From positions 248,001 through 312,000 of the forward strand of contig NZ_JAFCIY020000001.1 of the NCBI RefSeq assembly GCF_020194955.2: a stretch of DNA of 64,000 nucleotides, given 5' to 3'. Position 1 is the first letter of the stretch. The number at the start of each line of letters is the position of its first letter. The position numbers and the translations under genes are program-made. Below the pieces are notes generated by a model. It worked only from the letters and a program-made list of their open reading frames with translations. It was not told the DNA's origin and searched no databases. Positions 3,305-41,788 of the stretch are shown one piece after another. The DNA comes from Desulfuromonas sp. CSMB_57 (GTDB taxonomy: Bacteria > Desulfobacterota > Desulfuromonadia > Desulfuromonadales > Syntrophotaleaceae).

Positions 3305-4111
3305 ATGACCAGTCCGCAAATGATTTACCTGCTTTCCGATGCCACCGGCGAGACCGCCGAAAAGATTGTCAACGCGGTGCTGGTTCAGTTCCGGGACAAG
3401 CCGGTGAGGCGGCGGCGCATCAGCCATGTGCGGGACCAGGCGGCCGTGCTGCATGGGCTCGATGAGATCATGCAAAACCCCGGGATGGTGGTCTATACGG
3501 TCGTCAACCGGGATCTGGCCCAGTTCATTCAGACCGAGTGCGAGGCTCGGGGTCTGATGGCCTTTGACTTGGTGACGCCCTTGTTGTCCCAGTTTGCCAA
3601 ATTTTTCGGGCGGTCGCCGAAACAGACGCCGGGGCTCCTGCACAGCATGGACGCAGATTATTTCCGCCGCATCGAGGCGGTGGAGTTCACCGTCAAGCAC
3701 GATGACGGGCAGTCGGTCCAGCATTTGGCGGATGCCGATATCGTGCTGGTAGGAGTCTCCCGTACCAGCAAAACGCCGCTGTCGACCTATTTGGCTCATC
3801 TCGGCTGGAAGGTGGCCAACGTGCCGCTGGTGTTCGGCATCGACCCACCCAAGGAACTGTTCCACGTCGATCCCCACCGGGTGGTCGGCCTGTATATCGA
3901 ATCGCAACGCCTGGTGGAGTTGCGCATGGCACGGCTGCAACATCTCGGGCAGGATTTTAAAACGGCTTACGCCAATATGGATAAAATCGAAGAAGAGCTG
4001 CGGTATGCCAGAATGCTTTATCGCCGTCAAGGCTGGGTGACGGTCAATGTTTCGGGCAAGGCCCTGGAGGAAACCGCCAACGAGGTGCTGGTCAAGCTGA
4101 AGCTGAAATGA
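3305..4111 (+). CDS. ppsR: PEP synthase / pyruvate phosphate dikinase regulatory protein (DUF299)
   Basis: Bifunctional serine/threonine kinase and Pi-dependent phosphorylase that switches PEP synthase or pyruvate phosphate dikinase on and off by phosphorylating the active-site region, so gating gluconeogenic PEP formation. The 268-residue product starts [17 protein letters not shown] and carries the family P-loop [11 protein letters not shown] near residue 157. The ATG at 3305 is preceded by CCGGAGG, so the longer frame from 3257 is not used. Sequence does not tell whether the partner is PEPS or PPDK, so the symbol is provisional. Confidence 0.92.
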
Positions 4112-4194
4112 AGGTATGGCCAGAGGTTTTTGGCGTCTGTCAGTGAATCCGCAGAGGGCGGAGCAACTCCTTATTTCACAGGAAACCCGCCGGC

Positions 4195-4620
4195 CTATTT
4201 CGGGCCGGGCCAACCGGCTACGCCACCATCCAGTATCGCCACATTGTTCCACCCAGCCGCCTGCGCCAGGTGGGCCGCTACGGTGGCCCGGCGCACCGTC
4301 CGGCAGACGAAAATCAGGGGGATGCCTCGATCCTGCGGCAATTCGTGCAGCCTGTGCGGCAGACTGTCCAAGGGAATCAGCCGCTCACCCAGTCCCAGAC
4401 GGTGGGCCGCGAACTCCTCGGCACTGCGTACATCGATCAAAGCGTGCGGCCCGGCCATCCAAGCCGTTCGCAATTCCTCGGGCGATATCCGTTTCACTCG
4501 TTGCGGCTCCTGCGAAAAGGCCGTGAACGCCTGGATGACCAGAAATAGGGCTGTCAGGGCGCTCATGGCTATCCAACGCCATGCTGTATCCCCTTGGAGT
4601 GGTGCCAACTTAAGCATCAT
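4195..4620 (-). CDS. Membrane-anchored rhodanese-like protein
   Basis: 141 residues. An N-terminal hydrophobic segment (about residues 16-36) should anchor or export the protein, so the rhodanese domain probably faces the periplasm. The domain shows the usual ALIDVRSAEEFAAHR start and an active-site loop FVCRTVRRA with the catalytic cysteine, followed by a C-terminal ILDGGVAGW motif. A sulfur-transfer or thiosulfate-related role is typical of the family. It is convergent with the upstream regulator gene and separated from the UPF0178 gene by 99 bp. Confidence 0.88.
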   Translation of the reverse strand: MMLKLAPLQGDTAWRWIAMSALTALFLVIQAFTAFSQEPQRVKRISPEELRTAWMAGPHALIDVRSAEEFAAHRLGLGERLIPLDSLPHRLHELPQDRGIPLIFVCRTVRRATVAAHLAQAAGWNNVAILDGGVAGWPGPK

Positions 4621-31606: not shown

Positions 31607-33019
31607 ATGCTCGAACTGACTCTGATCGACCAGATGACCATCATCCTCTATCTCGGCTGTGTGCTGGGCCTCGGGCTCTGGGCCGGGAGGCGGGTGAACG
31701 ACTTGGAGGAGTATGCAGTGGCCGGCCGCAACTACACCGCGCCGATCATCGCCGCGACCCTGTCCGCGTCCTTCATCGGCGGCGGTTTTACCATGGGGAA
31801 TGCCGAAAAAGTTTTCACCATGGGCATTGTGAACATCATGGCGCTGTGGGGTTTCAGCCTCAAGGAAATGCTGGTGGCCCGCTTCATCGCGCCCCGATCA
31901 AGGCGTTTTCCCACGGCGATTTCCGTCGGCGACGTCATGGAGGTGAATTACGGCAAAACCGGCAAGTTCGTCACGGGGATCTTTTCGGTGCTGCTGTGCG
32001 CAGGGATTCTCGGAGCTCAGATAGGCGGCATGGGCTATCTGTTCAACCTGTTCCTGGGTCTTTCGGTGCCCACCGGCATCATGATCGGCATGGGGATCAT
32101 CATCCTGTACGACACCGTCGGCGGCATGCGGGCGGTGGTGTCCACCGACGTATTGCAGTTCGCCATACTGGCCGTCGGCATGCCCCTGGTGCTGATTTTC
32201 GGCATCTCCCAGCTCGGCGGGCTCGGTGAAGTTCTTGATCGGGTGCCTGCCGGCCATCTTGAAGTATTCAGCAAGATGACCCCGATGCAGTTCGGCTCAC
32301 TGTTCCTGACCTTCATGCTGGGGGAAACCCTGGTGCCCCCTTATGTGCTACGGCTGTTCATCAGCCGGGACACCAAGGCCGTTTCCCGGGGCACCCTCTG
32401 GAGCGGTCTGTTCTCGGTGCCGTTTTTCGCCATTTCCGGAGGCATCGGCCTGGTGGCGCTGGTGCTTAAGCCCGACCTCAACCCCAATCTGGCGATCCCC
32501 TTCGTCGTGGAAAGCGTGCTGCCGATCGGGATGCGGGGCCTGGTGATCGCGGGAATCCTGGCTGTGGTCATGTCTTCGGCCGACTCCTTTCTCAACAGCG
32601 CCTCCGTTGCCTTCGTCAACGATATCGTCAATCCTCTTCGCAGAGAGAAACTCAGCAACCGCACCGGCCTGCTCTGGGCCCGCCTGGCGACCCTGATCAC
32701 CGGCTTCCTGGCGATCGTCATTGCCATCCGTATTCAGAGCCTGCTCGATATTTTGCTGTTCGCTTACAACTTCTGGTCGCCCATCATCCTGGTGCCGCTT
32801 GCCGCCACCCTGCTGGGATATAAAGCCACCCCCCGGGCTTTCATCTCCGGAGCCGCGGCCGGCCTCATCGGCGTCTTCGGCTGGAGCCGGCTACTCGGCG
32901 CGCCGGGCGGCTTCGACGGCCTGATCATCGGGGTCTTTGCCAATTTCCTGGTTTTCTGGGTTGTCAACCGCGTGCAAAGTGCTGAACCCGAGTGCGCCCA
33001 AGTTCTTGCCCGCGATTGA
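31607..33019 (+). CDS. Sodium:solute symporter (SSS/SLC5 family)
   Basis: 470-residue inner-membrane protein with about 13 helices. Family features include EEYAVAGRNYTAPIIAATL near the start, where Na+ and substrate sites form, and a helix-5 segment YDTVGGMRAVVSTDVLQF. GGGAGG stands upstream of ATG 31607. The gene lies 22 bp after the NRAMP-like gene and 11 bp before codA, so all three are probably one operon. The solute may be the deaminase substrate, for example a pyrimidine base or creatinine. Confidence 0.92.
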   Translation: MLELTLIDQMTIILYLGCVLGLGLWAGRRVNDLEEYAVAGRNYTAPIIAATLSASFIGGGFTMGNAEKVFTMGIVNIMALWGFSLKEMLVARFIAPRSRRFPTAISVGDVMEVNYGKTGKFVTGIFSVLLCAGILGAQIGGMGYLFNLFLGLSVPTGIMIGMGIIILYDTVGGMRAVVSTDVLQFAILAVGMPLVLIFGISQLGGLGEVLDRVPAGHLEVFSKMTPMQFGSLFLTFMLGETLVPPYVLRLFISRDTKAVSRGTLWSGLFSVPFFAISGGIGLVALVLKPDLNPNLAIPFVVESVLPIGMRGLVIAGILAVVMSSADSFLNSASVAFVNDIVNPLRREKLSNRTGLLWARLATLITGFLAIVIAIRIQSLLDILLFAYNFWSPIILVPLAATLLGYKATPRAFISGAAAGLIGVFGWSRLLGAPGGFDGLIIGVFANFLVFWVVNRVQSAEPECAQVLARD

Positions 33020-33030
33020 CAGGAGGCGGC

Positions 33031-34326
33031 ATGTTCGACTTGATCGTACGCCAGGCCCGGCTTTTGGGAAAACATGAGCTGCAGGACATCGCCTGCAGCA
33101 ACGGATGCATCGTCGATGTGAGGCCCCGCATCGAGGCCGAGGCGGTCGAGGCGGTCGAGGCGCGCGGCTACCTGGTTTCGCCGGGATTCGTCGACAGTCA
33201 TTTCCATATGGATGCGACCTTGAGTCTCGGCCGGCCCCGCCTCAACCGGAGTGGCACCCTGCTGGAGGGGATCGCCCTCTGGAACGAGCTGAAGCCCGAA
33301 CTGACCCTGGAATCGCTCCGCGACCGGGCCTTGCAGTGCTGCCGCATGGCCGTCGCGCGCGGCACCCTGCACATTCGCAGCCATGTGGACGTTTGCGACG
33401 AGCGGCTGCTTGCCGTTCAAGCGTTGCTGGAAGTCCGGCGGGAGATGGCCCCCTATCTCGATCTGCAGCTAGTCGCCTTTCCCCAGGACGGCTACCTGCG
33501 TTCTCCCGGCGCCCGGGCGAACCTTCTCCGGGCGCTGGACATGGGCGTGGATGTGGTGGGGGGAATCCCTCATTTCGAACGCACCATGGCCGACGGCGCC
33601 GCCAGTGTTCGCGAACTCTGTGAACTGGCTGCGGCGCGGGGGCTGCGGGTCGATATGCATTGCGATGAAAGTGACGATCCTTTGTCGCGCCACGTCGAAA
33701 CCCTGGTCGCTGAAATCTGCCGCCTCGGACTGCAGGGAAGGGCGGCCGGCTCCCATCTGACCTCCATGCACTCCATGGACAACTACTATGTCAGCAAGCT
33801 TCTGCCGCTGATGGCCGAGGCGCAACTGCACGCGGTGGCCAATCCCCTGATCAATATCACATTGCAGGGCCGTCACGACAGCTATCCCCGGCGGCGGGGG
33901 ATGACCCGGGTGCCGGAGTTGCTGGAGGCGGGAGTCAATGTCGCCTTCGGCCACGACTGCATCATGGATCCCTGGTACAGCCTCGGTTCCTACGACATGC
34001 TCGACGTCGCCCACATGGGGCTCCATGTCGCGCAGATGACCGGGCTGGAGCAGATGCGGGAATGCTTCGCCATGGTTACGACGCGCGGCGCGCGGGTGTT
34101 GGGATTGGATGGCTACGGTTTGGAGCCGGGCTGCTTCGCCGACATGGTGCTGCTGCAGGCCCGGGGGCCGATCGATGCCCTGCGGCTGCGCCCGGCGCGA
34201 CTCGCGGTCATCCGCCGCGGCCGGGTCATCGCCAGCACCCCGGAGGTCCGGCCCAGGCTGCTTCTCCATGGGGAAAGGGAACTGGATTTGACCAGCGATG
34301 TTTATGAAAGGAGAGAAAAAAACTAG
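33031..34326 (+). CDS. codA: Cytosine deaminase-like amidohydrolase
   Basis: 431-residue metal-dependent deaminase that aligns along its length with E. coli CodA as I know it: metal site GFVDSHFHMD, SGTLLEGIALWNELK, HIRSHVDVCDE, LQLVAFPQDG, MHCDESDD, SHLTSMHS, NPLINITLQGR and the catalytic aspartate in GHDCIMDPWY. Reaction: cytosine to uracil and ammonia; CodA relatives also act on creatinine, isocytosine or related bases, so substrate is not certain. ATG 33031 follows AGGAGG by six bases, better than the upstream frame. Last gene of the transporter operon. Confidence 0.9.
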   Translation: MFDLIVRQARLLGKHELQDIACSNGCIVDVRPRIEAEAVEAVEARGYLVSPGFVDSHFHMDATLSLGRPRLNRSGTLLEGIALWNELKPELTLESLRDRALQCCRMAVARGTLHIRSHVDVCDERLLAVQALLEVRREMAPYLDLQLVAFPQDGYLRSPGARANLLRALDMGVDVVGGIPHFERTMADGAASVRELCELAAARGLRVDMHCDESDDPLSRHVETLVAEICRLGLQGRAAGSHLTSMHSMDNYYVSKLLPLMAEAQLHAVANPLINITLQGRHDSYPRRRGMTRVPELLEAGVNVAFGHDCIMDPWYSLGSYDMLDVAHMGLHVAQMTGLEQMRECFAMVTTRGARVLGLDGYGLEPGCFADMVLLQARGPIDALRLRPARLAVIRRGRVIASTPEVRPRLLLHGERELDLTSDVYERREKN

Positions 34327-34416: not shown

Positions 34417-34833
34417 ATGATCAGACTGCTTGCGGTCCTAGTGTTCTATGCGGCCCTCTCCGGTCCCGCATTCGCCCTGGATAATCCCGGTATCGAGGTG
34501 GAAACCCTGGTCCAGGGGAACGCCAGCTGGGATGGAACCCTCCTGCCGGCCTATCCCGACAGCCAACCCCAAATCACCATCCTGCGCATCGGCATTCCGC
34601 CGGGTACCACCCTTCCTTTGCACAAGCATCCGGTGATCAATGCCGGAGTACTGGTCCGGGGCGAGTTGACCGTCGTCACCGAGCAGGACGAGACCCTGCA
34701 GCTGAAGGCCGGAGATCCCATCATCGAAGTGGTGGACAAGTGGCACTACGGCAAAAACGAAGGGGCGGAAACGGCTGAAATTATAGTGTTTTACGTCGGC
34801 ACTGCAGATCTTCCGCTGACAGTTAAGCAATAG
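34417..34833 (+). CDS. Exported cupin-domain protein
   Basis: 138 residues: a signal peptide (1-20, ending AFA) and one cupin fold. Motif 1 reads PPGTTLPLHKHPVINAGVLVRGEL and motif 2 GDPIIEVVDKWHYGKNEG; the two His of motif 1 could bind a metal. Probably periplasmic; small exported cupins of this type are of uncertain function. It has AAGGAGG upstream and precedes the autotransporter by 30 bp. Confidence 0.85.
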   Translation: MIRLLAVLVFYAALSGPAFALDNPGIEVETLVQGNASWDGTLLPAYPDSQPQITILRIGIPPGTTLPLHKHPVINAGVLVRGELTVVTEQDETLQLKAGDPIIEVVDKWHYGKNEGAETAEIIVFYVGTADLPLTVKQ

Positions 34834-34863: not shown

Positions 34864-37800
34864 ATGAAATTCACACTGCTGACCTGCCTGTCCGCCATCC
34901 TGTTGTCTGGTGGCGTGGTCCATGGCCTCGACCTGCCTTCCTCCTTTGACCTGAGAAATATCGACGGCCGCAGCTACATCGGCCCGGTCCGGGACCAGGA
35001 CCAATGCGGAAGCTGCTGGTCCTTTGGCACTTTGGCGTCGGCGGAAAGCGTCTGGAACCGGACCCATAACCGGTACGACGGTCAGGCGGTCGATTTTTCC
35101 GAAAGCTTTCTGGTCTGGAGCGTGAGTCCCCTTTATGAGAACCTGATGGGATGCGACGGGGGAGGGCTCGACCTTCCGCAGAATGATGCCCTGATCGAGC
35201 ATGGCGTGCCTTTGGAATCGGACTTTCCCTACACCATCGAAGATCCCGGCGACGATCTTCGTTGGGACGCCCAACGTTACACGTTTCTCGACTGGTACCG
35301 CATCCCGGCCGGCGACATCGAGACCATGCGCCGCGTGCTCTACGAGGTGGGGGCGGTGACTACCGGGGTATATGTCGAGGACGATTTCTATGCCTATGAA
35401 GAGGGGATTTTCGAGAATCAGCGCACTACCATCAGTCATTCGGTCCCTTATTACTCCGACGCCAACCATCTGATCTCCCTGGTGGGCTGGGAGGACGAGC
35501 CTGGGGACGACGGTCTCGGTTACTGGATTCTGCGCAACAGCTGGGGGCCCGATGTCTGGGGGGAAGAGGGGTACATGCGCATCCGCTACACCTCCGCCAG
35601 GGTCGCCCTGTTCGGATCCTATATGACTCTGCAGGAATGGGACGGCGCAAGCGCCGCACTGGAGAACGATGGGGAAATTTCTGCCGTCCCCTGGAGCGCC
35701 GGCGGCACCCTCAACGCCCACGGCGTGGATCTTTGGGGCGGGGCCGCGAGCAGCGTGGCGAATCGCGGCCTGATCCTGGCCCAGGCGATGAGCGACACGG
35801 AACTGGCTACCGCCCGGGGGGTCTATCTCTGGGGCGGCCCCGAGGGACAGGTGATCAACGAGGGGGGCATCGGCGGGCTGGCCATAAGCGAAAATCAGCA
35901 GGCCTATGCCTATGGCATCTGTCTGCAGGGAGGCCGGATCGACAACAGCGGTCAAGTGGTGGCCGCTGCCCTCAGTGGGACGGATCAGGCCATGGCCTTC
36001 GGCATCTGGGCAGGCAACGGCGGCAATCCCCTTGAAATCGTCAACAGCGGATCGATTATTTCGGTGGCCAGGGGCAATGTCCTGAACGCTGCCTATGGCA
36101 TCTGGGCAGACAATCGAGAGACATTAAGAGTGAATAACAGCGGTCATATCGGTGCCTTCGCCGACGATTACGCCGTCGGCGTGCTGCTCAGCGGAAGGTT
36201 CTCCGTACTGGAGAACAGCGGCGTCATCGAATCCGCGGCGTCCTTTACAGACCCGGAACTGATTTCGGGTCACAGTGCGGGCGTCAGGGTATCATCGACC
36301 GGGACCATTATCCGGAACAGCGGCACCATCAGCGGGGCTTCCTACTCGATCTATTCTTCCGAAAGCACATTCCTCAGTCTTGAAACGGGCTCCGACCTGG
36401 TCGGCCCCGCCCGTTTCAATGGGGACAACGATGTGCTGGCGTTGTTCGGCACCGGCACTGAAGAGATCGATTTTCATGGAGTAGAAACACTGGTCGTGGC
36501 CGGGTCGGACTGGACCTTGAGCGGCGATTCCTCTTTCGATTCCATTCAGGTGGTTTCGGGGCGTCTGGGAGCGGACGGCTCTCTGGCCGGGCAAACCAGC
36601 GTCCTGTCCGGCGGCACTCTCGGCGGCAACGGCTCGCTGACTGGAAACGTGGCCAGCGTCGGGAAGGTGGCGCCGGGAGCCTCTGTCGGGCATTTGACTA
36701 TCGACGGAGATTTCACCCAATCCGCCGACGGTACTCTGGAGATCGAGATCGGCGACGGCGTCGCCGATCTGCTGACCGTCACCGGCACCGCCGATCTGGC
36801 CGGAACCCTTCTGCTCCTGCCGGACGGCTATGCCACCGGTGGCAGTTACACCTTCCTGGAGGCCGGTGCCATCATCGGCGGCTTCGACACCCTGTCCGCC
36901 GCTGCTGTTTTTAGCTTCAGCCTTCTGAGCGCCGCGGACAGCCTGACCCTGGACGTGACGCGCAACAGCTATGCTGACCTGGCGGCCACCCATAACCGGG
37001 GCCTGTCGGCCTTGCTTGATCAGGAGAGGGCAGGCTCCGAAGGGGATTTCGCCGTTCTTCTCAACAGCCTCGATATGTCCCTGAACCTTGAGGCCCTGAA
37101 CGACAACCTGGAGACTCTGACCCCCCGCATTCATGGGGCGGCCAGCATCGTGGTGCTGGACGATGCCCAGGCACGGCTGGCCGATTTGCGCCGTCACTTG
37201 CGCCGGATGGATGGGGAGGTGAAATCCCCGAGTGTGACCGGCTGGCTGGAATTGCTCGGCCGGGATGCCGATTATCGCCGGGCCGGCGCCTATGACGCCA
37301 TGCATGCCAATCTGCACGGGCTGATGCTGGGCGTGGAACGGACCGCCAGGGGGTTGACTTTGGGGGTGGCGGCGTCCGTGACCGAAAACCGCTACGAGTC
37401 CCGGCATTCCCGCGACAAAGGGAAGAGCGACAGCCAGCAGGGTTATCTTTATGCCTCCTGGCGGGATTCCCGCCGCTCCGGCGGATGGCACCTGAATGCC
37501 GTCTTGGGCGGCGGATTGGTCCAACTTGAAGCCGACCGGAACATCCCCTTTGCCGGCAGGCAGGCGAAGAGCGAGCATGACGGCACCCTCTTCGGCGCCG
37601 CAATCAGCGGGGGCCGTGTGCTGAATCTGGGGAGCTGGATTCTCGACCCGGCCGTGGGGCTGAGCTACGTTCACCTGCGCGAGGAAAGTTTCCGGGAAAA
37701 AGGGGCCGACAGCGCCGATCTCGAGGTCGGCACGCGGGATAACGCCTCCCTGCAAAGCCTGGTGGGGCTTCGGCTCAGTCGTCCCGTTTCTCTGTCACGG

Positions 37801-38067
37801 GTGCGGCTGGTTCCGGAACTGCAGGCCGAGTGGCGGCACGAGTTCGACCGCCGGACCGAGGATCTGTGGGCGGGCCTGGCAGGGGGGGGCGGACGTTTCC
37901 ATACTCCCGGCCGGGATCTGGCCTCGGACAGCATGCTGCTCGGCGTTTCCCTGGGAGCCTGGATGTCGGAAAGATTCCATGCCGGTTTGGGTTACAACTG
38001 TGATCTGCAGGGCAGCGGCGGCTCCACCCGCCACTCGCTGAATCTGACAATTGCTGCAAGTTTTTAA
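34864..38067 (+). CDS. Autotransporter with papain-family (C1A) protease passenger
   Basis: 1067-residue type V secreted protein. Signal peptide 1-21; residues ~23-255 are a C1A cysteine protease domain with oxyanion Gln and catalytic Cys in DQDQCGSCWSFG, catalytic His in DANHLISLVGWED and Asn in LRNSWGPDVWGEEGYMRI. There is no obvious propeptide. Residues ~260-700 form a beta-helix-like passenger with repeated NSG and WGG segments. The autotransporter beta-barrel occupies about 790-1067 and ends in the outer-membrane signature LNLTIAASF. The protease should be displayed or released at the cell surface. A long hairpin lies 122 bp downstream. Confidence 0.9.
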   Translation: MKFTLLTCLSAILLSGGVVHGLDLPSSFDLRNIDGRSYIGPVRDQDQCGSCWSFGTLASAESVWNRTHNRYDGQAVDFSESFLVWSVSPLYENLMGCDGGGLDLPQNDALIEHGVPLESDFPYTIEDPGDDLRWDAQRYTFLDWYRIPAGDIETMRRVLYEVGAVTTGVYVEDDFYAYEEGIFENQRTTISHSVPYYSDANHLISLVGWEDEPGDDGLGYWILRNSWGPDVWGEEGYMRIRYTSARVALFGSYMTLQEWDGASAALENDGEISAVPWSAGGTLNAHGVDLWGGAASSVANRGLILAQAMSDTELATARGVYLWGGPEGQVINEGGIGGLAISENQQAYAYGICLQGGRIDNSGQVVAAALSGTDQAMAFGIWAGNGGNPLEIVNSGSIISVARGNVLNAAYGIWADNRETLRVNNSGHIGAFADDYAVGVLLSGRFSVLENSGVIESAASFTDPELISGHSAGVRVSSTGTIIRNSGTISGASYSIYSSESTFLSLETGSDLVGPARFNGDNDVLALFGTGTEEIDFHGVETLVVAGSDWTLSGDSSFDSIQVVSGRLGADGSLAGQTSVLSGGTLGGNGSLTGNVASVGKVAPGASVGHLTIDGDFTQSADGTLEIEIGDGVADLLTVTGTADLAGTLLLLPDGYATGGSYTFLEAGAIIGGFDTLSAAAVFSFSLLSAADSLTLDVTRNSYADLAATHNRGLSALLDQERAGSEGDFAVLLNSLDMSLNLEALNDNLETLTPRIHGAASIVVLDDAQARLADLRRHLRRMDGEVKSPSVTGWLELLGRDADYRRAGAYDAMHANLHGLMLGVERTARGLTLGVAASVTENRYESRHSRDKGKSDSQQGYLYASWRDSRRSGGWHLNAVLGGGLVQLEADRNIPFAGRQAKSEHDGTLFGAAISGGRVLNLGSWILDPAVGLSYVHLREESFREKGADSADLEVGTRDNASLQSLVGLRLSRPVSLSRVRLVPELQAEWRHEFDRRTEDLWAGLAGGGGRFHTPGRDLASDSMLLGVSLGAWMSERFHAGLGYNCDLQGSGGSTRHSLNLTIAASF

Positions 38068-38253: not shown

Positions 38254-39087
38254 TTACATCTGAGCCAAATTGGTAATGAGGTTGTATGTAAACCAACCAT
38301 CACCTGTCTGGAATGACTGCGGTTTGGCTGTTTGCGCATCCCTTTGCACCCCAATTCCATCAGAAAAAGGCTCAAAGGTAACAATCTTGTTGTAAGCAAT
38401 GCGAAACCGCTTTGATGGTCCGGCAAAGTAAATGTGCTTATTTGTGACACCCAACAAGCCCGTATCTGCGTGCACGGTTTCAGACGTCTGAACGCGCTCT
38501 CCTTTAAAGACACCAGTTCGATAATACAGTCCTCGTGCAATACGAACGCTTACACCTTGAGACCCACCAACATAACGGGTTCTGGTCTTCTCTTCATAGT
38601 ATTTGACGCCCTGGAACACCCATACGACTTTTTCTGATTTCTGCAAATTGAATGGTAAGCCGCCATCAATTTTCATTCTTTCTGGCAAGTTACCATCCAT
38701 TATGTCGCGCAGAACAGCACCCTTTACCAGTTTTGAGTACGCACCATTTCTATCAAGAATCTGCTGCGGCAATGAAAAGTGCTCCTTCAATTCACTGAGT
38801 GCAGATTCTTCTTCCTCGGAAAGCAGGCCGTTGTCAAAAGCAATATCTACCGCTCTTTCCCAACCAGACGCCACTAGAGAATCCAAGGTATCTTTATCTA
38901 TAAAACTTGTTGAGGCAACGTGCTCAATTGAATTTTCCAATCGGTGTAAGTCACCACCTTCAGCACCGATTTTGCCGACAAGAGAGATAACTTCAAATTT
39001 TCCCTGTTCGTGTCGTTGTTTGCACTCTTTGTGTGTTTTCTTCAAAAAACCGGCGGCTTTTCCGCAGTAAATGCATTGCCCCATCAT
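38254..39087 (-). CDS. Zinc-ribbon and PH-like (GRAM-type) domain protein
   Basis: 277 residues of no firmly named family. The N-terminus holds a short putative zinc-binding cluster (Cys5, Cys8, His19, Cys22). The middle is helical and acidic. Residues ~195-275 look like a small beta-rich PH/GRAM-like domain, with LLGVTNKHIYFAG, RIAYNKIVTFEPFSDGIGV and a final DGWFTYNLITNLAQM. ATG 39087 overlaps the channel gene stop and has AAGGAG upstream, so it is co-translated with the ion channel and probably acts with it, for instance as a sensor or membrane-recruited partner. Confidence 0.6.
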   Translation of the reverse strand: MMGQCIYCGKAAGFLKKTHKECKQRHEQGKFEVISLVGKIGAEGGDLHRLENSIEHVASTSFIDKDTLDSLVASGWERAVDIAFDNGLLSEEEESALSELKEHFSLPQQILDRNGAYSKLVKGAVLRDIMDGNLPERMKIDGGLPFNLQKSEKVVWVFQGVKYYEEKTRTRYVGGSQGVSVRIARGLYYRTGVFKGERVQTSETVHADTGLLGVTNKHIYFAGPSKRFRIAYNKIVTFEPFSDGIGVQRDAQTAKPQSFQTGDGWFTYNLITNLAQM

Positions 39088-39794
39088 TCATTCTCCTTCT
39101 GTTCTTCTGATCTTGCTTTGGAAAGTGCGGACGCAAGCAGCCCGGCCGGGACAGCTACTATCCCAAGGCCTATCATAAGAATCAAAAATGTGAAGATTCT
39201 TCCTCCAACAGTGATAGGGTAGACATCTCCATAACCAACCGTAGTCAGCGTGGCGACAGCCCACCAGAAACTATGAAATATGCTCTTAAACTGTTCCGGC
39301 TGTGCTTCATTCTCGAAGTAGTAAATTCCAACTGCGGACAAATAGAGCAACATCATTGTTACAACTCCGAATATTACAATCTCTTCTTTTGCTATGAAAA
39401 AGGCTCTGCTAAAGCGCCGCATTGCGCTGTTGTATCTGATAAGCTTGAATGATCGAAAAAGACGCAGCATCCTCAGGATTCGGAGAGACCTCAGATCGAT
39501 GCCGAGCGATAAATAGAAGGGAGCGATTGCGATGAAATCTACTATGCCGTAGAAGCTAAGAATATAGTCAACCTTCCTATCGGAGACGTATATTCGTACA
39601 ATGTACTCAAGCGTGAATATCGAAACAATAACCGTCTCAGTGAGTGACAGTAACCGAGTTGTTGCGTCACTGAGATTTGGTACGGTTTCAGTTGAAAAGG
39701 TGATTACTGAGGCAACTATCAAACACTGAATGGTCAAATCAAAGATTCGCCCAGCCTTTGTGTCACTTCCCTCAATTATCGTCTTCAAGTTCAT
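39084..39794 (-). CDS. Voltage-gated potassium channel-like protein (6TM)
   Basis: 236-residue ion channel: S1-S6 with the arginine-rich S4 segment RSLRILRMLRLFRSFKLIRY and the K+ selectivity filter TVGYGD before S6. It lacks an N-terminal assembly domain and has only a short charged tail. The ATG at 39794 is chosen because the protein begins naturally there; an upstream start at 39866 would run into the attC-like fold. It overlaps the zinc-ribbon/PH-like gene (ATGA). AT-rich, within the putative cassette region. Confidence 0.85.
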   Translation of the reverse strand: MNLKTIIEGSDTKAGRIFDLTIQCLIVASVITFSTETVPNLSDATTRLLSLTETVIVSIFTLEYIVRIYVSDRKVDYILSFYGIVDFIAIAPFYLSLGIDLRSLRILRMLRLFRSFKLIRYNSAMRRFSRAFFIAKEEIVIFGVVTMMLLYLSAVGIYYFENEAQPEQFKSIFHSFWWAVATLTTVGYGDVYPITVGGRIFTFLILMIGLGIVAVPAGLLASALSKARSEEQKENE

Positions 39795-39819
39795 TTGCTG
39801 CGCACTTTTCTTGGTTTCT

Positions 39820-39879
39820 AACGTGGGCGTAACCGGTTGCTTTTGGAGCGCCAGCGGAAAAAGCAATCCGAGTTAACGC
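39820..39879 (-). repeat. attC-like fold next to the group II intron
   Basis: On the minus strand CGG-A-TTGCTTTT pairs with AAAAGCAA-CCG, leaving an unpaired A as expected for an extrahelical base, inside a TAAC/GTTA outer pairing. The core boxes deviate from the RYYYAAC/GTTRRRY consensus, so this is a weaker attC candidate than the one at 43853. The intron begins about 5 bases away. Confidence 0.45.
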
Positions 39880-39883
39880 ATTG

Positions 39884-41788
39884 GTGTACGCCCGGCATGG
39901 GCGTGAACTTATGGGGTGCAAGTCCCCTGTACGGTGAATCCAATCCCGTCTTGAGACGGGGTCACGAAAGTACTAGCCTACGGCAAGGGCGTCTCCGCGA
40001 GGAGGGGTCGGAGGAAGCCCGAGCGCAAAGCTATGAGCCGACGAACAGAAACAGAATACAAGGCCGGTTCTCCGGGCCAGTCAGCACAACATGACGAAGC
40101 CCGCGGATTCAGGAGTCCAGGTAAATGCTGCGGTTGTGTAGCGACAGTTCACGTTCTTATCCGGGGAGACCTGTCCGGCTGGCCGCTTTCGATCCTTGGA
40201 AGCTGCGCCCTGCATGGCAACATGCCGGGTGACCGGGCAGGAGTCAGCAGAGGCCATAGTAGGCGCAGGACGTTGCCGTCCGCGATCCGGCAACTGGAAA
40301 CAAGCCGGGGAAGAACCCCGGAAGCCTTACCCCGCCGAAGGGCCGAACACAGAACAGGAAAGGAGCCCCTATGAGCTTTCAGGACACGACGAACCCGACC
40401 GGGGGAGTGCCCATGGAGCGCGTCACGGACCGGCCAATTCCGGAGCATCACCTATTGGAGCGGATTCTCTCCCGCGAGAACATGGAATGGGCGTGGAAAC
40501 GGGTCAGGGCCAACAAGGGCGCACCCGGCGTCGATGGCATTACCATCGATCAGTTCCCCGCCCAGACCAGACCCTTGTGGGCCGAAATCCGCGCATCGCT
40601 GACGACAGGCCGTTACCTGCCGCAGCCGGTTCTCAGGGTGGAAATACCGAAACCCACGGGCGGAATGCGTCCGCTGGGTATTCCCATCGTGCTCGACCGG
40701 CTGGTCCAACAGTCCATCGCCCAGATCCTGACGCCGATCTTCGATCCGGAGTTTTCCGAGTCGAGCTTCGGTTTCAGGCCGGGCCGCTCAGCACAGGATG
40801 CGGTGCGGCAGCTGCGGGAGTATCTCCGACAAGGGTACCGATTTGCCGTGGACATCGACCTTGCCAAGTTCTTCGACACGGTCAATCACGACCTGCTCAT
40901 GCAGTGTGTGAGCAGGAAGGTTCACGACAAGCGGGTGTTATCCCTGATCGGCCAATACCTCCGGGCCGGGGTAGTGGTGAACGGGCGGCTGGAAAAGACC
41001 ACCATGGGCGTCCCCCAGGGCGGGCCTCTTTCACCGCTGCTCGCCAATATCCTGCTGGACAATCTGGACAAGGAGCTTGAGCAGCGCGGACACCGCTTCG
41101 TCCGTTACGCCGACGACTTCGTCATTCTGGTGAAGAGTCCGCGTGCCGGGCAGCGGGTCATGCAGAGCGTCAGGCACTATCTGACGCGCACACTCAAGCT
41201 CACGGTCAACGAAGACAAGAGTCGGGTCGCCAAAAGCGACCGCCTCCGCTTTCTTGGATTCGCCTTCAAGGGAACCCGCATCCTCTGGTCGGACCAGGCG
41301 TACCAGGAATTCCGTCGCCGGGTCAGGAAGTACACCGGAAGAAGCTGGTTCGTCTCCATGAAGTACCGGTTGCACAAGCTGTCTACGTACCTCCGGGGCT
41401 GGATGGGCTACTTCGGTATCTCCGAACAGTACCGCGACATCCCGGAAATAGACGGTTGGATCAGGCGGCGGGTGCGGATGTGCTACTGGAAACAGTGGCG
41501 ACGGTGCCGCACCAAGATTCGGGAGTTACTCAAACTCGGTACCCTCCTGGGTACCGCCATCCGCGCGGGCCTGAACAGAAGCGGCCCGTGGGCGATGGCC
41601 CGAAGACTGGCCGCCCAGTCCGGTATGACCAACCAATGGCTGAAGGAACAAGGTCTCATCTCTGTCAAAGAACTGTGGGTGAAGATCCATTGCCCGGCTA
41701 CGGCCCGGTAACTCTGTGAACCGCCCGGTGCGGACCCGCATGCCGGGTGGTGTGGGGGCTGGGGGTTAAAAACCCCCGGCTACCCGAT
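39884..41788 (+). mobile_element. Group II intron (class C-like) with encoded maturase
   Basis: A self-splicing retroelement of about 1.9 kb. The 5' end reads GTGTACGCCCGGCATGGGCG and the 3' side shows a domain V hairpin (41718-41753, GAACC...GGTGT pairing around GGACCCGCAT) followed by a domain VI hairpin of G and C runs with TTAAAA loop, ending CCCGAT. The reverse transcriptase gene lies in domain IV. Both ends are estimated from motif position, within a few bases. Insertion beside an attC-like site resembles C-attC introns. Confidence 0.85.
40371..41711 (+). CDS. ltrA: Group II intron-encoded reverse transcriptase/maturase
   Basis: 446-residue intron-encoded protein that splices and retro-homes the intron RNA. 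Reverse transcriptase blocks are intact: GVDGITIDQF, VEIPKPTGGMRPLGIP, FRPGRSAQDAV, VPQGGPLSPLLANILLD and catalytic RYADDFVIL. A maturase (GIIM-like) domain follows from about residue 330, with LRGWMGYFGI. There is no HNH endonuclease domain, in line with class C introns. Start at ATG 40371 with GGAAAGGAG upstream. Confidence 0.93.
   Translation: MSFQDTTNPTGGVPMERVTDRPIPEHHLLERILSRENMEWAWKRVRANKGAPGVDGITIDQFPAQTRPLWAEIRASLTTGRYLPQPVLRVEIPKPTGGMRPLGIPIVLDRLVQQSIAQILTPIFDPEFSESSFGFRPGRSAQDAVRQLREYLRQGYRFAVDIDLAKFFDTVNHDLLMQCVSRKVHDKRVLSLIGQYLRAGVVVNGRLEKTTMGVPQGGPLSPLLANILLDNLDKELEQRGHRFVRYADDFVILVKSPRAGQRVMQSVRHYLTRTLKLTVNEDKSRVAKSDRLRFLGFAFKGTRILWSDQAYQEFRRRVRKYTGRSWFVSMKYRLHKLSTYLRGWMGYFGISEQYRDIPEIDGWIRRRVRMCYWKQWRRCRTKIRELLKLGTLLGTAIRAGLNRSGPWAMARRLAAQSGMTNQWLKEQGLISVKELWVKIHCPATAR

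Follow-up and report, generated by a model that had tools for sequence, protein, structure and literature searches.

The window, i.e. the whole stretch of 64,000 nucleotides that was analysed, comes from an anaerobe that lives freely and is a relative of Pelobacter. The autotransporter gene described below and the genes upstream of it lie on its + strand. At positions 34864–38067 we found, as the earlier note had proposed, a gene for a C1A-peptidase autotransporter, here of 1067 amino acids (aa). It is one ATG-to-TAA open frame with whole-length orthologues. Sequence inspection revealed a GGAG ribosome-binding sequence a few nucleotides 5′ of the start. By inspection alone, the protein seems to begin with a Sec-type signal peptide (aa 1–21, MKFTLLTCLSAILLSGGVVHG; 34864–34926), which comprises a lysine, a hydrophobic core and small residues where cleavage is expected. 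The orthologues show the same pattern. We also considered whether the invariant Cys8 could mark a lipoprotein, and rejected this reading because merely seven residues precede it.

The Peptidase C1A domain occupies aa 24–243 (34933–35592) and matched the Pfam model PF00112 (Peptidase_C1) with an E-value of 3.5e-36 and 125.8 bits against a cut-off of 20.7. The genome has no other PF00112 match. The oxyanion-hole Gln45 (34996–34998), the catalytic Cys51 (35014–35016; in QCGSCW, aa 47–52) and the catalytic His202 (35467–35469; in ANHLISL, aa 200–206) were invariant in a 35-row C1A alignment. The catalytic-triad Asn225 (35536–35538; in RNSWG, aa 224–228) was invariant in the orthologues and present in at least 90% of that alignment. 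The intact triad previously read from these three motifs was thus confirmed. An N-terminal propeptide is usual in the C1A family but not required. In this protein the domain starts three residues past the apparent signal peptide, and therefore there is no propeptide, in agreement with the earlier note.

The C1A domain is followed by a modelled beta-helical stem of regular strands (aa ~265–600; 35656–36663), an autochaperone-like C-terminal part of the passenger that overlaps the end of the stem (aa ~541–700; 36484–36963), and a putative helical linker (aa ~703–780; 36970–37203), whose helices were predicted with low confidence in the position known from classical autotransporters. The beta-barrel (aa 794–1067; 37243–38064) ends in a C-terminal Phe. 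The Autotransporter profile PF03797 matched it full-length at aa 794–1045 (E 4.3e-50; 171.3 bits, cut-off 26). Type Va autotransporters have a C-terminal, 12-stranded translocator barrel, and their passengers are typically, not universally, beta-helical. A C-terminal PF03797 barrel with a final aromatic residue, a Phe invariant in the orthologues, supports placing this protein in type Va.

Four further genomes of the family (G001, G007, G008 and G011) carry full-length intact orthologues, with 59–68% identity to the window protein. The identity was 63–68% for G007, G011 and G001 (63% for G001), and 59% for G008, whose copy has an insertion within the beta-helix. Gln45, Cys51, His202, Asn225, the C-terminal Phe and long stretches of the barrel were invariant among them. 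Counting the window, five genomes have copies in which the architecture is uninterrupted; of these genomes, G001 and G007 are near-closed. All four segments of the gene had dN/dS values of about 0.09–0.42 (NG86 method; some dS values were near saturation), and they are under purifying selection. For the window copy, this evidence rules out two fused genes as well as a dead barrel, and neither of the two circumstances that the earlier note had named as fatal, a frameshift joining two genes or a non-functional barrel, applies. The copy of G009 has one frameshift and that of G079 is broken in the middle; either could be a draft-assembly error. In G004 (L080, C10, positions 340–540), we observed a remnant of the barrel, decayed and interrupted by stop codons, immediately 5′ of an intact symporter gene. 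The remnant indicates that G004 lost the autotransporter gene and, together with the two broken copies, that the gene is dispensable in some lineages.

A sodium:solute symporter gene (31607–33019; PF00474, E 3.3e-37) lies upstream on the same strand as the autotransporter gene. Symporter orthologues with at least 72% identity were present in all six carriers of the fusion and in G004, and absent from the other seven genomes of the family. The difference between 6/6 carriers and 1/8 non-carriers gave P = 0.005 in a Fisher test that was uncorrected for kinship. The symporter adjoins the autotransporter in G008 and G009 and lies 6–8 kb off in G001 and G011. In G007 a cupin separates the two genes, and in the window a deaminase plus a cupin. 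That deaminase is a cytosine-deaminase-like amidohydrolase (33031–34326 or 32992–34326; NF005748, 752 bits), which was not seen beside the autotransporter in the orthologous loci. The small, secreted-looking cupin (34417–34833; PF07883, E 2.6e-11) ends 30 bp 5′ of the autotransporter gene and is likely co-transcribed with it. Among the orthologous loci, only G007 has this upstream cupin. Scans for promoters and terminators yielded no informative signal.

On the other side, a 277-aa protein without a Pfam match is encoded directly downstream of the autotransporter (38254–39087, − strand) and is adjoined by an ion-channel gene (39084–39866). A group II intron reverse transcriptase/maturase (40371–41711, + strand; TIGR04416, 416 bits) lies a few kb downstream.

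We modelled the C1A domain from the 35-row alignment and the whole protein from five rows only. The C1A model took a papain fold (mean pLDDT 80, pTM 0.83). In a Foldseek search against the PDB it matched papain-family structures, with cathepsin C (dipeptidyl peptidase I) at the top (E 9e-19, 35% identity). A sequence search also placed cathepsin C first among solved catalytic domains (E 1.1e-28). Compared with it, the window protein has no exclusion domain, no propeptide and fewer cysteines, and it is fused to a barrel. The exclusion domain is what makes cathepsin C a dipeptidyl peptidase. As the signal peptide alone stands ahead of the C1A domain, the protein would be expected to act as an endopeptidase and not as a dipeptidyl peptidase.

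The whole-protein model was confident solely in the beta-helix, at aa ~290–600 (pLDDT mostly 60–92), which agrees with the beta-helix-like region followed by a barrel that had been noted earlier. The best PDB matches of this helix were the autotransporter passengers EspC, Ssp and UpaB, all with weak E-values; the match to the Ssp passenger, over 195 columns, had a probability of 1.0 but an E-value of 0.12. The NCBIfam model of EprS matched aa 543–1057 (E 8.7e-35), with a score of 120 that is far below its cut-off of 1700. The autochaperone-like part was assigned from this Ssp match and from the start of the EprS match at aa 543. Ssp and EprS are subtilisin-type autotransporters. The window protein has the autochaperone and barrel chassis in common with them, but its catalytic domain belongs to C1A and theirs to S8. 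No S8 match was found in it with Pfam or NCBIfam.

Within the order, PF00112 was found in 8 of 136 genomes: the six carriers of the fusion, G079 with its broken orthologue, and G083, whose C1A domain is of another kind than the fused ones. Of 395 genomes sampled across the phylum, 105 had C1A. A PF03797 search of 54 genomes with C1A from this phylum gave no C1A-barrel fusion outside G079. A candidate in G411 was rejected, because its neighbouring C1A and PF03797 domains belong to separate genes. Within the phylum genomes sampled, the fusion appears to be confined to the order Desulfuromonadales. A scan of the genome collection with a single C1A sequence gave no confirmed relative. The alignment-based scan gave four loci, three of them in genomes already seen. 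The new one, L032, is a 5-kb contig labelled Planctomycetota with a frame of 1125 aa that holds both domains (C1A at 300–986, + strand); it is plausible that this contig was mis-binned. None of the plasmid records covers both C1A and barrel domains.

Related genomes also encode paralogous autotransporters (L008 259–3285, + strand; L019 1486–4497, − strand; L009 1–3009, + strand), which have the autochaperone and barrel in common with the window protein at 34–38% identity. Their passengers bear zinc-protease-like HExxH motifs (HEIFHGLGI, HEILHGFGI and HEILHAMGV). These passengers matched no Pfam model, and that of L009 had no match among PDB sequences either. In addition, a barrel in G083 (C152, ~3719–4477, − strand) lies inside an open frame of 7133 codons, a giant autotransporter in the same order.

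The fused C1A domains differ from the unfused ones in their cysteines. The 27 unfused C1A domains of the phylum had 5–9 cysteines (mean 7.4), and the unfused group whose motifs most resemble those of the fused domains had 5–7. Comparatively, seven of the eight fused domains hold three: the catalytic one and a pair equivalent to Cys22 and Cys63 of papain. In the window protein this sole retained pair is Cys48 (35005–35007) and Cys97 (35152–35154; assigned from the C1A alignment). Both partners are gone in L032, which keeps the catalytic Cys alone. All the fused domains formed one clade with full support and a long stem (1.24 changes per column). Therefore, they represent one evolutionary event and one later loss, not eight independent cases, and the P value of 1e-5 from a Mann-Whitney test of the cysteine counts overstates the contrast. 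The segment before the domain differs as well. Among 26 unfused C1A genes, 24 have 66–285 aa before the domain, and in many of these a short stretch resembling a propeptide can be recognised. The window protein has 23 aa there, nearly all of them signal peptide.

Autotransporter passengers are usually cysteine-poor, because disulfide loops that arise in the periplasm can obstruct their translocation (PMC9769942). The few cysteines and the missing N-terminal segment would fit, as expected, a passenger that crosses the outer membrane unfolded. Selection may have caused the loss of cysteines. Alternatively, the fused domains may descend from a cysteine-poor C1A lineage outside the sampled genomes.

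Proteins of this kind are not new. The orthologue in G001 is, we presume, very probably Pcar_0046 of Pelobacter (Syntrophotalea) carbinolicus, since the position of its gene at 53–56 kb fits the locus tag. If so, Pcar_0046 is 63% identical to the window protein and shows no difference in architecture. A paper of 2012 described part of the Pcar_0046 passenger as a predicted cysteine peptidase (PMC3543383); what it says of this protein comes without a family, a triad, a comparison or an experiment. A text search did not find Pcar_0046 in other papers. An autotransporter census of 2018 listed C1 cysteine peptidases and M10 metallopeptidases among the protease autotransporters (PMC5767081). By the name of that category, its C1 entries combine type Va and a C1 peptidase as the window protein does. 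The literature searched contained no record of an experiment on C1A autotransporters. Thus, the kind was already known and, as far as that literature shows, is uncharacterised. The earlier note was fair in stating that autotransporter passengers are usually subtilisin-, chymotrypsin- or lipase-like, but C1 passengers had already been listed. It also called the design unusual. The design is indeed rare, and restricted to this one order among the phylum genomes sampled, but this was not its first sighting. What is new in this analysis is that the fused C1A domain has no pro-segment and few cysteines.

The domain content, the domain order, the catalytic residues and the conservation support the reading that a classical (type Va) autotransporter carries a C1A protease as its passenger and would expose it at the surface as a working enzyme. 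Taken as a whole, we give a probability of about 0.82 to a cell-surface papain-like cysteine endopeptidase with type Va export; its route, topology and activity are drawn from knowledge of the families. The precursor would be exported by Sec and its signal peptide removed. The C-terminal barrel would be inserted into the outer membrane by Bam, and the passenger would cross this membrane C-terminus first. Once outside, the autochaperone-like part and the beta-helix would fold and carry the papain-like domain on their distal tip. If the C1A domain folds only there, it would need no inhibitory propeptide and few structural cysteines; the single pair that it retains, Cys48-Cys97, lies next to the active site. 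The most likely role, although speculative, would be the cutting of environmental or biomass protein for uptake. The linked sodium:solute symporter suggests import of a product of the protease, with the assignment of its substrate also speculative.

A rather unlikely alternative is that the main target is not external protein but the passenger itself or surface proteins nearby, so that the protease would serve self-release or the processing of other envelope proteins. Hap, NalP and other protease autotransporters process themselves or other surface proteins, and the window genome offers other autotransporter barrels, in two PF03797 genes besides the window gene. However, we identified neither a candidate cleavage site nor a partner, and the linkage to the symporter suggests a nutritional role. 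Still less probable is a C1A domain that has the shape of a protease but no activity, and that serves for binding (as an adhesin or scavenger) on an autotransporter stalk. Catalytically dead relatives such as TINAG exist in the C1A family, the residue after the catalytic Cys varies between W and Y, and L032 has neither of the non-catalytic cysteines. But every member, even L032 and the broken copy of G079, has kept the Gln, Cys, His and Asn without change, and the C1A segment had the lowest or near-lowest dN/dS in most orthologue pairs; both observations speak against this reading. The decayed or broken copies in G004, G079 and G009 might suggest two genes joined by a sequencing error or a decaying pseudogene, but for the window copy the orthologues, with their uninterrupted architecture and purifying selection, refute this very improbable account.

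The window protein seems to combine parts of different histories. Its C1A domain was nearest to those of G001, G011 and G009 (72–73% identity to G011 and G001 versus 62% to G007). Beyond aa ~550 the protein was nearest to G007 (77% versus 55–66% to G011 and G001), and the neighbouring symporter likewise pairs the window with G007 (88%). The tree of the C-terminal part grouped the window with G007 at a support of 100/100, and the alternative was rejected (P = 1e-37). The tree of the C1A part placed the window with G011, G001 and G009 at a support of 87/95 to 91/91. For this part, the grouping with G007 was only marginally rejected (P = 0.04; P = 0.053 for aa 22–540). Thus, the window gene is likely, though not firmly, a mosaic whose catalytic half would have been exchanged on a shared chassis. 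Part of this signal could come from a G007 copy that diverged faster. We consider it an even bet that a papain domain was refitted for autotransport, by giving up its propeptide and all structural cysteines but one pair (in L032 that pair too) so as to cross unfolded and fold outside, and that alleles also swapped catalytic modules on an export chassis that they share.

The C1A family normally has several disulfides and a propeptide, and therefore the fused proteins offer a good natural test of the rule that passengers are cysteine-poor. The fused family reveals which cysteines were kept and which were lost, and it includes a member with a single Cys (L032). As cultivable members exist, it can be tested directly how a papain is translocated and folds when an autotransporter carries it. 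The fused protein also suggests a ready-made chassis for cysteine-protease display.
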